Below, piece after piece: positions 34,591 through 38,437 of a stretch of DNA of 64,000 nucleotides. The stretch comes from Halegenticoccus soli (GTDB lineage: Archaea; Halobacteriota; Halobacteria; Halobacteriales; Haloferacaceae), in the NCBI RefSeq assembly GCF_002844195.1, contig NZ_PEND01000009.1, positions 1 through 64,000 on the forward strand, in the 5' to 3' direction. The notes beneath the pieces are model-generated. The model saw nothing but the letters and a program-made list of their open reading frames with translations. It did not search any database and was not told the DNA's origin. Both the position numbers and the translations under genes were made by a program. Position 1 is the stretch's first letter. The number at the start of each line of letters is the position of its first letter.

Positions 34591-37095
34591 ATGGCGGCCA
34601 CGGACGACGTCGCGTACGTCGAGCACCCGCTGCTCGCGCCCTCGTTCATCCAGCGCCGGCTCTATCAGATCCGGCTCGCCGGCGCGGCGCGGGACGCCCA
34701 CACGCTCGTCTGCCTCCCGACCGGGCTGGGCAAGACGACGGTGAGCCTGCTCGTCACGGCCGAACGGCTCCACGAGGTCGGCGGCAAGTCGCTCTTTCTC
34801 GCGCCGACGAAGCCGCTCGTCCAGCAGCACGCCGACTTCTACCGCGAGGCGCTGTCGATCCCGGACGACGAGATCGTCGTCTTCACCGGCGACGTGCGCC
34901 CGGACGACCGCGCCGACCTCTGGGACGACGCGCGGATCGTCGTCGCCACGCCGCAGGTCGTCGAGAACGACCTCGTCGGCAACCGGATCGACCTGCGCGA
35001 CGTGACCCACCTCACGTTCGACGAGTGCCACCGCGCCACCGGCGACTACGCCTACGTCTACATCGCCGAGCGCTACCACGCCGACGCGGCGAAGCCGCTC
35101 GTGACGGGGATGAGCGCCTCCCCCGGCGGCGACGAGGAGGCGATCCTGGAGGTGTGCGAGAACCTCGGCATCACCGAGGTCGAGGTGATGACGGAGGACG
35201 ACGCCGACGTTTCGGAGTACACCTACGACACCGAGGTCGAGTGGAAGCGCATCCAGCTCCCGGACGAGATCCTGGAGATGCGCGACGCGCTGAACGAGGT
35301 GATCACGGACCGCCTCCGGAAGCTCAAGTCGCTGGGCGTGACGAACACGACGCAGCCCGACGTCTCCCAGAAGAAGCTGAACGAGATGGGCGCGAAGCTG
35401 CGGGCGATGATGGACAACGACCGCTCGGAGGGGTACAAGGGGATGTCAACGCACGCGGAGGTGATGAAGCTCCGCCGGGCGGTCGAACTCGTCGAGACGC
35501 AGAGCGTCGAGTCCGTCCGTCGGTACTTCGAGCGCCAGCGCAACGCCGCCCGCTCGGCCGGCGCGTCGAAGGCGAGCCAGCGGCTCGTGAGCGAGCCTAA
35601 AGTGCGCGAGGCGATGCGCAAGGCCGAGTCCTTCTCGGATCTCCACCCCAAGTTCTCGCAGACGCGCATCCTCCTCGCCGAGACGCTCGGCATCCGCGGC
35701 GGACGGCGCGTCATCGTCTTCACCGAGTCCCGCGACACCGCCGAGGCCCTGACGGACTTCCTCTCGGAGAGCTTCGACGTCCGGCGCTTCGTCGGTCAGG
35801 GGGACCGCGAGGGGAGCGACGGGATGACCCAGAAGGAACAGCAGGAGACGCTCGACGCGTTCCGGGCGGGCGAGTTCGAGGTGCTCGTGTCCACCTCCGT
35901 CGCCGAGGAGGGGCTCGACGTGCCGGAGGTCGACCTCGTGCTCTTCTACGAGCCCGTTCCCACGGCCATCCGGTCCATCCAGCGCAAGGGCCGAACCGGC
36001 AGGCAGACCGAGGGTCGGGTCGTGGTGCTGATGGCGGAGGACACCCGCGACGAGGCGTACTTCTGGATCTCCCGCCGCAGGGAGTCGCAGATGGAGGACG
36101 AACTCCGGAAGCTGAAGGGCGTGGCGGACGACCTGGAGGCGGAACTCGACGACGGGCAGAAGGCGCTCTCGGCGTTCGACGGGAGCGACGGCGGATCGGG
36201 CGCGAGCGGGGATCCGGAATCGAAGCGCCGCGAGCGCCTCCAGCCGGGGTTGAGCGACTTCGGCGGCGAGCCCGACGCGGACGACGGCGCGGACGACGCG
36301 AACGGACCGGACGGGAGGAACGACGCGGACGAGACGAACGGAGCGAACGGGACCGAACCGAACGGAGACGGGCGGGGCGGATCTGCCGGCGGTTCCGGCG
36401 GTTCCGGCGAGGACGGACTCGTCGCCGCCGCCGGGAGCGACGACGGGGAGACGGTGGAAATCGTCGTCGACCAGCGCGAACTCGACTCGGTCATCGCCCG
36501 CGACCTCTCCACGCGCGAGGGGATCGAGACGCGCCTCGAAACCCTCGCGGTCGGCGACTACGTCCTCTCGGATCGCGTGGCGGTCGAGCGCAAGTCGGTT
36601 TCGGACTTCCTCGACACCCTGACCGGCGGCGATCGCTCGCTGTTCGAGCAGGTGCGCGACCTCGGCCGCCACTACTCCCGTCCGGTCGTGATCGTCGAGG
36701 GCGACGGCCTCTACGAGGAGCGCAACGTCCACCCGAACGCCATCCGCGGAGCGCTCGCCAGCCTCGCGGTCGATTACGGCGTCAGCGTCCTCCGGACCGA
36801 GGACGAACGCGACACGGCCGACCTGCTGGAAGTGATCGCCAGCCGCGAGCAGCGGAAGCGCGAACGCGCCGTGAGCGTCCACGGCAGCAAGAGCGCGAAG
36901 ACGCTCGCCGAACAGCAGGAGTATGTCGTCGGTTCGATCGCGGACATCGGCCCCGTCACCGCCCGCTCGCTGCTCGAACACTTCGGCAGCGTCGAGGCGG
37001 TGATGACCGCGGAGACGGAGGAGCTCCTCGAAGTTGACGGCGTCGGCGAAGTGACGGCCGAGCGCGTCCGCGAGGTCGCCGGAAGCGAATATTAG
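34591..37095 (+). CDS. hef: Hef helicase/XPF-type nuclease
   Basis: An 834-residue fork-repair enzyme related to FANCM and XPF. The SF2 helicase part (about 1-510) has Walker A PTGLGKT, the DECH box LTFDECHRAT, motif III MSASPG and motif VI QRKGRTGRQ. A 130-residue Asp/Gly-rich linker follows (about 525-625). The nuclease domain (about 630-770) has the XPF motif VAVERKSVSDFLDTL and VDQRELDS. Two HhH motifs close the protein (DIGPVTARSLLEHFGSVEAV, EVDGVGEVTAERVREV). It would process stalled or crossed DNA. The ATG at 34591 gives the family start. Confidence 0.95.
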   Translation: MAATDDVAYVEHPLLAPSFIQRRLYQIRLAGAARDAHTLVCLPTGLGKTTVSLLVTAERLHEVGGKSLFLAPTKPLVQQHADFYREALSIPDDEIVVFTGDVRPDDRADLWDDARIVVATPQVVENDLVGNRIDLRDVTHLTFDECHRATGDYAYVYIAERYHADAAKPLVTGMSASPGGDEEAILEVCENLGITEVEVMTEDDADVSEYTYDTEVEWKRIQLPDEILEMRDALNEVITDRLRKLKSLGVTNTTQPDVSQKKLNEMGAKLRAMMDNDRSEGYKGMSTHAEVMKLRRAVELVETQSVESVRRYFERQRNAARSAGASKASQRLVSEPKVREAMRKAESFSDLHPKFSQTRILLAETLGIRGGRRVIVFTESRDTAEALTDFLSESFDVRRFVGQGDREGSDGMTQKEQQETLDAFRAGEFEVLVSTSVAEEGLDVPEVDLVLFYEPVPTAIRSIQRKGRTGRQTEGRVVVLMAEDTRDEAYFWISRRRESQMEDELRKLKGVADDLEAELDDGQKALSAFDGSDGGSGASGDPESKRRERLQPGLSDFGGEPDADDGADDANGPDGRNDADETNGANGTEPNGDGRGGSAGGSGGSGEDGLVAAAGSDDGETVEIVVDQRELDSVIARDLSTREGIETRLETLAVGDYVLSDRVAVERKSVSDFLDTLTGGDRSLFEQVRDLGRHYSRPVVIVEGDGLYEERNVHPNAIRGALASLAVDYGVSVLRTEDERDTADLLEVIASREQRKRERAVSVHGSKSAKTLAEQQEYVVGSIADIGPVTARSLLEHFGSVEAVMTAETEELLEVDGVGEVTAERVREVAGSEY

Positions 37096-37138: not shown

Positions 37139-37147
37139 GGTTTAAGC
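37139..37147 (+). promoter_or_regulatory. TATA-like element for the first YG-repeat gene
   Basis: GGTTTAAGC, centred 29 bp upstream of the ATG at 37172; a leaderless transcript is likely. Confidence 0.55.
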
Positions 37148-37171
37148 GTGTCGACAGCGATTAACTCAAAT

Positions 37172-37390
37172 ATGAGTAATGAATTCGATTCCGACGTCAC
37201 CCCGGCCGACGTGGCGTTCTACGGCCGCGCGCAGCACGAGGCGGTCGCGGGGTCCGAACGAGCGTGGTACGGCGGGAGCGAGATCGCCATCCCGGCGGAG
37301 CGCGCGCTCTACGGCCGGCTCCGCCACTACCGCGACGATGGCGAGAGGGTGGTCGCGTCGCCGCGGTCGACGGTCGGCGCGACCGCGTGA
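37172..37390 (+). CDS. Small YG-repeat protein 1 (72 aa, unknown function)
   Basis: A 72-residue soluble protein starting MSNEFDSDVTPADVAFYGRAQHEAVAGSE. It has three similar blocks: AFYGRAQH (Tyr17-Gly18), AWYGGSE (Tyr33-Gly34) and ALYGRLRH (Tyr47-Gly48), 16 and 14 residues apart. The neighbouring gene at 37445 carries the same kind of block (LYGPPQH) twice, also with Tyr-Gly 16 residues apart and at nearly the same positions, so the two are probably duplicated relatives. No cysteine, signal peptide or membrane helix is visible. I do not recognise the family. A TATA-like box (37139-37147) lies 25-33 bp before the ATG. Confidence 0.7.
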   Translation: MSNEFDSDVTPADVAFYGRAQHEAVAGSERAWYGGSEIAIPAERALYGRLRHYRDDGERVVASPRSTVGATA

Positions 37391-37444
37391 CAACAGGCAC
37401 AACCCTTTTGCGCGATCGGGCTGTCAATCACATCCACACCCAAC

Positions 37445-37705
37445 ATGTCCCCACTTCAGGCGGACGGCTCCGACGCCGCGTCGGAGATGAAGCTGTACGG
37501 TCCTCCGCAGCACGAACGGGGTGCCGACGAGGAACAGCGGCTGTACGGTCCCCCGCAGCACGACAGCGGGGCCCCCGACGAGTTCCCGTTCCTCTTCCCG
37601 CGGTGGCGAGCGGAGACGGACGACGGGCCGACGGACGATCCACCCGGTGAGGGGTCGCCGCTGACGACGGGCCGCCCGAACTCCGCGACCGTCCTCGACG
37701 ACTGA
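37445..37705 (+). CDS. Small YG-repeat protein 2 (86 aa, unknown function)
   Basis: An 86-residue soluble acidic protein with two near-identical blocks, MKLYGPPQHERGADEEQ and RLYGPPQHDSGAPDE (Tyr18-Gly19 and Tyr34-Gly35). The remaining 40 residues are Asp/Pro/Gly-rich (PFLFPRWRAETDDGPTDDPPGEG) and likely disordered. It lies 54 bp after its relative at 37172 on the same strand, with its own possible TATA-like box (CCTTTTGCG, about 37402-37410). The shared repeat and position suggest a common function, which I cannot name. Confidence 0.7.
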   Translation: MSPLQADGSDAASEMKLYGPPQHERGADEEQRLYGPPQHDSGAPDEFPFLFPRWRAETDDGPTDDPPGEGSPLTTGRPNSATVLDD

Positions 37706-37786: not shown

Positions 37787-38437
37787 CTATCGGCGTAGCG
37801 CCGCGAGCGTCTCCGCGGCCTCGCGGGCGGCGGAGAGGAGCTCCTTGGCGCGCCGCGGATCGTCGGCCGCCTCGGCCTCCCGAGCGTACCTGGTCAGCGC
37901 CCCGATCAGCGCCGCCCGCGCCTCGCTCAGATCGTCCGAGCCGCGCGGCTCGGCGGACCTCGACGCGCTCGTCGCCGACGCCGGCCGTGCCGGGACTTCC
38001 GCACCGGAACTCCGCCCGTCGACGCGCGCGTGCGCCTCCGACGCGGACGGCCCCGGTCCGCGGGAGGCGTCGGCGCTTTCCCCCTCTCTCTTCCCGGGAG
38101 CGTCTGCCGGCTCCGGTTCGCTGGCGACCGCCTGGTTCGCTTCCGCTTCGGTGGAGTCAGCCGGTTCCGCAGCGTCGGCGTCCGCCCCTTCCGCGGACGC
38201 ACCGCTCGCGGTTCGCTCCCGCGCCGCCTCGGCACCCGATTCGCGGCAGATGGGGCAGAACTCCTCGCCGTTCTGGCGGAAGATCGGGTTCCCGCAGGCG
38301 TCGCAGTGCTTGTTCGTCATCGTCGCGCCCTTCAGGAGGAGTTCGCTCATCACCTGCGTCGACTTGCGCTTTTCTCTGTCCTTCTCGAACTTCTTCCGGA
38401 GCTTCTCCCGCTCGGCTTCCTTGTCGAAGTCGCTCAT
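37787..38437 (-). CDS. Sjogren/p27 autoantigen-type zinc-ribbon protein
   Basis: A 216-residue protein. A basic helical start (MSDFDKEAEREKLRKKFEKDREKR) is followed by STQVMSELLLKGATMTNKHCDACGNPIFRQNGEEFCPIC, a four-cysteine zinc ribbon. This combination is the archaeal relative of human autoantigen p27 (Sjogren's syndrome/scleroderma autoantigen 1). A Ser/Ala/Glu/Pro-rich linker (about residues 75-175) leads to a C-terminal helix (ARAALIGALTRYAREAEAADDPRRAKELLSAAREAAETL). The function is unknown. I used the ATG at 38435-38437; the longer frame upstream is Arg-rich and lacks similarity. Confidence 0.8.
   Translation of the reverse strand: MSDFDKEAEREKLRKKFEKDREKRKSTQVMSELLLKGATMTNKHCDACGNPIFRQNGEEFCPICRESGAEAARERTASGASAEGADADAAEPADSTEAEANQAVASEPEPADAPGKREGESADASRGPGPSASEAHARVDGRSSGAEVPARPASATSASRSAEPRGSDDLSEARAALIGALTRYAREAEAADDPRRAKELLSAAREAAETLAALRR

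Follow-up and report, generated by a model that had tools for sequence, protein, structure and literature searches.

A haloarchaeal family of small acidic proteins with tandem YGxPQHE motifs encoded directly downstream of hef

Small proteins whose amount is set by nutrients through a transcription factor, and which bind another protein, are known from cyanobacteria, i.e., the glutamine synthetase inactivating factors IF7/IF17, and CP12 (PMC7760959). In the haloarchaea Halobacterium salinarum and Haloarcula hispanica, the TrmB regulon is marked by the published consensus TACT-N7-GAGTA (PMC3794607), and in the latter species the TrmB targets include small hypothetical proteins (PMC3794607, PMC10817205). 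The hef product is a FANCM/XPF-type fork helicase-nuclease that in other euryarchaea works with protein partners, among them PCNA and HAN, a nuclease of the RecJ type with demonstrated binding to Hef (PMC7776575). A fourth system comprises the haloarchaeal small zinc-finger proteins with two CPxCG motifs. These are the closest known systems for the locus described here, in a 64-kb stretch of Halegenticoccus soli DNA (the window; contig NZ_PEND01000009.1, positions 1 to 64,000).

Two neighboring genes, A and B, lie between hef and a convergent Auto_anti-p27 gene (Table 1), which is in turn followed by a malate dehydrogenase gene. Translation of the open reading frames (A, MSNEFDSDVTPADVAFYGRAQHEAVAGSERAWYGGSEIAIPAERALYGRLRHY...; B, containing ...MKLYGPPQHERGADEEQRLYGPPQHDSG...) confirms the coordinates, lengths and motifs given for the pair in a sequence-only reading, and the relatedness of A and B claimed there is borne out by a mutual BLASTP match (E 3e-5) and by relatives of both types in other genera. 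In A the YG pairs start with residues 17, 33 and 47, and in B with residues 18 and 34; the paired YG motif occurs once in the window compared with no occurrence in 100 shuffles. The exact 16-residue spacing that had been noted is peculiar to A and B, the units in 59 collected sequences being spaced mostly by 16–20 residues with a mode of 17. A and B are real genes and members of one family.

Table 1 Features at the YGxPQHE locus of the window
Feature	Position	Strand	Description
hef	34591..37095	+	helicase + ERCC4 nuclease + HhH (Pfam: DEAD helicase, ERCC4, HhH); conserved upstream neighbor of YG genes
TATA-like box TTTAAG of gene A	37141..37146	+	centre -28 from ATG; boxes similarly placed in A-type relatives
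Operator-like palindrome AACTCAAATATGAGTA	37163..37178	+	overlaps ATG of A; 8/9 positions, one mismatch to TrmB consensus TACT-N7-GAGTA
Gene A, 72-aa protein	37172..37390	+	units YGRAQHE, YGGSE, YGRLRHY; A-type YGxPQHE member; from translation
Weak T-rich box TTTTGC	37406..37411	+	possible promoter element of B, -36; similar CTTTTGG in one same-genus relative only
Gene B, 86-aa protein	37445..37705	+	two LYGPPQH[ED] units and C-terminal FLFPRWRAETDDGPT segment; B-type; from translation
Auto_anti-p27 (Sjogren's/scleroderma autoantigen 1-like) zinc protein gene	37787..38437	-	convergent, downstream; context only; Pfam

Small open reading frames are frequent by chance in GC-rich DNA of this kind; that A and B are merely such spurious frames is, however, extremely improbable, since conservation at the protein level is accompanied by synonymous variation, starts and promoters are conserved, and public plasmid records list relatives as annotated genes. 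In the motif codons of Tyr, Gly, Gln and His, positions 1 and 2 are invariant and third positions vary, a pattern which shows mainly that the codons can vary freely, because the sequence set was picked by the motif. The dN/dS ratios of close pairs are independent of this choice of sequences, and are mostly 0.15–0.6, with two B-type pairs at 0.62–0.66; window A and its nearest relative give 0.89, i.e., weak constraint.

Searches with the single proteins in 148 genomes of the same family code recovered A- and B-type relatives in other genera. A profile of a 30-residue core, drawn up from Haloferacaceae sequences alone, then retrieved further members across the class, in f6 (Halorussus and Haladaptatus), f7, f9 and more f1 genera. 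A second profile round found the family in 40 of 392 sampled Halobacteria genomes, in 12 of 87 genera and four family codes; this second profile includes its own members, and the unbiased evidence for both the spread and the hef linkage is the search with the Haloferacaceae-only profile. In a sample of the phylum (148 genomes), the only genomes found were three of Haloferacaceae, already known, and the family was not found outside Halobacteria. One weak sequence was excluded to give the collection of 59, of which 58 contain YGx[PA]QH[ED]. A lack of homologues, named in the sequence-only reading as a ground for refutation, is contradicted by this collection. The window genome has one same-genus relative in the sample (G018), and this carries YG genes 3′ of hef.

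Members of the family are small acidic proteins with one to three units each, in which His and Tyr are the most constant residues and the His of the first unit is invariant in all core sequences. A-type relatives 3′ of hef are found in Halegenticoccus, Haloprofundus, Haloferax and others, and B-type relatives in Haloprofundus, Halohasta and Halorussus. The B-type members carry a hydrophobic-basic segment behind the repeats, and B and the Halorussus proteins have a C-terminal segment in common (FLFPRWRAETDDGPT in the window and LLFARLRVETSTGPT in Halorussus); three units are common in the Halorussus proteins, where YGEPCHE is a frequent variant.

The earlier remark that no described family with this repeat is known is supported. 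Neither A nor B matches Pfam or NCBIfam up to E 10, or PHROGs up to E 1; 23 relatives searched against Pfam gave nothing beyond two single weak matches, and the core profile matched PDB sequences at chance level only (best E 1). Viral, phage or plasmid cargo was considered and rejected, there being no match in viral contigs (searched with a two-motif pattern) or in phages. Among plasmids, three weak relatives are found, on Haladaptatus plasmids only, and those on two of these plasmids are annotated in public records as hypothetical proteins. As far as the searched libraries reach, YGxPQHE is almost certainly an undescribed, haloarchaea-specific protein family.

In AlphaFold2 models, A and B lack a globular core and have short helices where the YG units lie (pTM 0.20 and 0.23, and mean pLDDT 60 and 66, for A and B, respectively), from alignments of 15 and 23 relatives that are shallow enough to model folded proteins poorly as well. 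The models suggest that the unit could be a helix running into YG, followed by an x-P-Q-H-E turn, i.e., a short linear motif that may be repeated for avidity.

The binding of metal, nucleotides or a partner protein had been suggested, as a guess, in the sequence-only reading. The invariance of the first-unit His and the recurrent exchange of Gln for Cys in Halorussus (YGEPCHE) bring to mind a small protein that binds Zn, Ni or Cu through the conserved His and Glu, and through Cys in Halorussus. This reading, for which the conserved His is the one positive sign, is distinctly unlikely: the translated A and B sequences contain no cysteine, the low-confidence models reveal neither a compact fold nor a folded metal site, each unit offers a single His, and Gln at the variable position would be an unusual ligand. 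The YG proteins resemble the CPxCG zinc proteins in size and in having conserved potential metal ligands, but A and B lack the two CPxCG motifs and match no zinc-finger family in Pfam or NCBIfam.

Inspection of gene neighborhoods, also proposed in the sequence-only reading, revealed conserved neighbors. Of the 40 genomes with the family, which span four family codes, 39 have a YG copy immediately 3′ of hef and in the same orientation, and this is the resident place of the family. Both A and B are found beside hef in Halegenticoccus and Haloprofundus, an A-like gene alone in Haloferax, Halogeometricum and g8, and one or two YG copies in f9, where the downstream neighbors differ. About one quarter of 80 named hef loci have a YG gene, and nearly all others are without a believable same-strand small gene at this place. 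On a tree of the Hef C-terminus, presence of a YG gene requires at least 11 changes, compared with about 33 when labels are shuffled, near-copies adding to the clustering; this low number agrees with a mainly vertical inheritance and recurrent losses. The H. volcanii-like Haloferax genomes present a clean absence, with no recognizable remnant of a decayed YG gene after hef. HVO_3009, guessed from gene order to be the H. volcanii locus, was discarded: the literature searched does not mention it, and the H. volcanii-like species examined lack the gene.

The surroundings of these loci vary in further ways. In the H. volcanii-like Haloferax (L115, L116, L118-L121), hef is followed on its 3′ side by a convergent UspA-like gene in some genomes and by a p27-like gene in others. 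A convergent gene for a UspA-type stress protein also recurs beside the YG gene in Halorussus, Halogeometricum and Haloferax (L107, L108, L213-L218). A YG gene of Haladaptatus away from hef (L104, L105) is flanked on its 5′ side by a gene encoding a coiled-coil protein of some 540 residues, and on its 3′ side by one encoding a DUF7835 small protein.

Direct adjacency may be read as a direct functional link, with the tandem motifs binding Hef, PCNA or another fork protein and tuning fork processing. In favor of this are the copy directly 3′ of hef across four family codes, its retention in f9 in spite of the different downstream neighbors, and the use of protein partners by Hef in other euryarchaea; the YG protein would then be, like HAN, a Hef accessory, but as a small repeat protein connected to Hef by gene neighborhood alone. 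We nevertheless consider this reading unlikely. The YG genes have their own promoters and are not evidently part of a hef operon, paralogues occur away from hef in Haladaptatus and Halorussus, and about 90% of the sampled genomes are without a YG gene, whereas hef is present in 45 of 45 genomes where it was sought. Furthermore, in one genome (G008; L103, L222) hef is 54 kb away from the hef-p27-mdh block, and the YG gene is still near the malate dehydrogenase gene and uvrC. Since the entire block is conserved, a shared location may mean little.

Somewhat less doubtful, although still on the unlikely side, is that the YG gene is a resident of the hef-mdh block without special ties to either gene, i.e., a lineage-specific gene held in place by slow rearrangement and serving an unrelated role, for example in stress or in the envelope. 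This agrees with the conservation of the block together with the p27-like and malate dehydrogenase genes, with the loss from many lineages seen on the Hef tree, and with the neighbors of the paralogues, which share no theme, neither on plasmids (CBS proteins and a TFB; a flippase and a sulfatase) nor at chromosomal sites away from hef (coiled-coil protein, DUF7835, HalOD1). Against this reading, the YGxPQHE motif is strictly conserved across families, which points to a specific partner or ligand, and the operator-like site at the start codon in Haloferacaceae points to control linked to carbon in that family.

Each of the two genes had been credited with its own promoter-like box; this applies to A, whose box is kept in relatives as TTATAT or TATATG, but the box of B is weak and not supported by conservation. 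In several Haloferacaceae genera the TATA-like box of A-type genes is located about 27–32 bases upstream of the ATG, which makes leaderless transcripts likely. A CG-rich OxsR motif was rejected as promoter element because the sequence differs.

Downstream of the TATA box, around the start codon of the A-type genes, TACT-N7-GAGTA is found exactly or at 8/9 positions, at -9/-10, in the five Haloferacaceae genera Haloferax, Halogeometricum, Haloparvum, Halegenticoccus and g8; the frequent start ATG-AGT (Met-Ser) accounts for part of the GAGT half. The site is exact in four of seven Haloferax, both Halogeometricum and Haloparvum, and matches at 8/9 positions in both Halegenticoccus, both g8 (one with N8) and two further Haloferax. 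A site downstream of the TATA box predicts repression, as in TrmB-family regulators (PMC10817205). In Haloferacaceae the identification as a TrmB-type site is supported by genome-wide counts, by a site at trmB and by sites before metabolic genes. Genome-wide, the motif outnumbers its reversed control in two Haloferax and one Halogeometricum (18 versus 3 in G064, 16 versus 2 in G123 and 13 versus 4 in G025), and is enriched neither in the genome of the window (38 versus 47 in the control) nor in f9. In Halogeometricum the same site stands upstream of the PEP synthase and malic enzyme genes. It is also present, by coordinates, at the trmB promoter in seven Haloferacaceae genomes, which suggests conserved TrmB autoregulation.

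In these seven genomes the PF11495 domain of the best TrmB homologue follows the trmB-associated site at a distance of about 360–380 bases (G000:C1:881388-881403, L229; matching sites in G018, G025, G028, G064, G090 and G123). A conserved TACT-N7-GAGTA is likewise found 27 bases before the start of an enolase-superfamily (MR_MLE) gene in two Haloferax (L261, L281), a candidate sugar-regulated target; we take the Haloferax enzyme to be a sugar-acid dehydratase of glucose breakdown.

At the level of sequence, the A-type promoters of several Haloferacaceae genera carry a putative TrmB-like site that overlaps the start codon. This overlap distinguishes these genes from the known TrmB regulon, with which they share the consensus in the promoter. 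A further difference is that the full site is absent at the YG genes of several genera and groups, i.e., Halorussus, Halohasta, Haloprofundus and f7, and TrmB control can thus not be family-wide.

For the YG proteins we tentatively favor, as a possibility below even chances, a sugar-regulated and mostly unfolded adaptor whose tandem YGxPQHE motifs bind a partner protein. A TrmB-type regulator would block A at low glucose, and A would be made when sugar is plentiful, in those lineages that have the TrmB-type site. The small acidic protein, predicted to be largely unfolded, could then bind its partner through the tandem motifs in the manner of IF7 and CP12, the candidates being Hef, by neighborhood, or an enzyme of central carbon metabolism, by regulation. 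The likeness proposed to IF7/IF17 and CP12 lies in small size, probable disorder, an amount set by nutrients via a transcription factor, and the binding of another protein; no sequence relation to the YG proteins was found or is claimed, and to our knowledge the YGxPQHE repeat is not part of IF7/IF17 or CP12. A broader version, in which the YGxPQHE proteins form a multivalent peptide-motif system that ties carbon status, sensed through TrmB, to fork repair by Hef, and thereby metabolism to genome maintenance, is very unlikely.

The YGxPQHE family is well supported, and the mechanism proposed for it is hypothetical. Small disordered regulators under nutrient control are already known elsewhere, whereas the YGxPQHE family itself is without known relatives. 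It adds to the haloarchaea an undescribed conserved family, present in 12 genera of a sample of 392 genomes, the motif of which is short and constant enough for a binding peptide. If the link to hef proves functional, the YG protein would be an accessory factor of a FANCM-type fork protein; if the TrmB-type operator does, it would be a small regulator within the sugar control of archaea; and in either case members are at hand in cultivable Haloferax.
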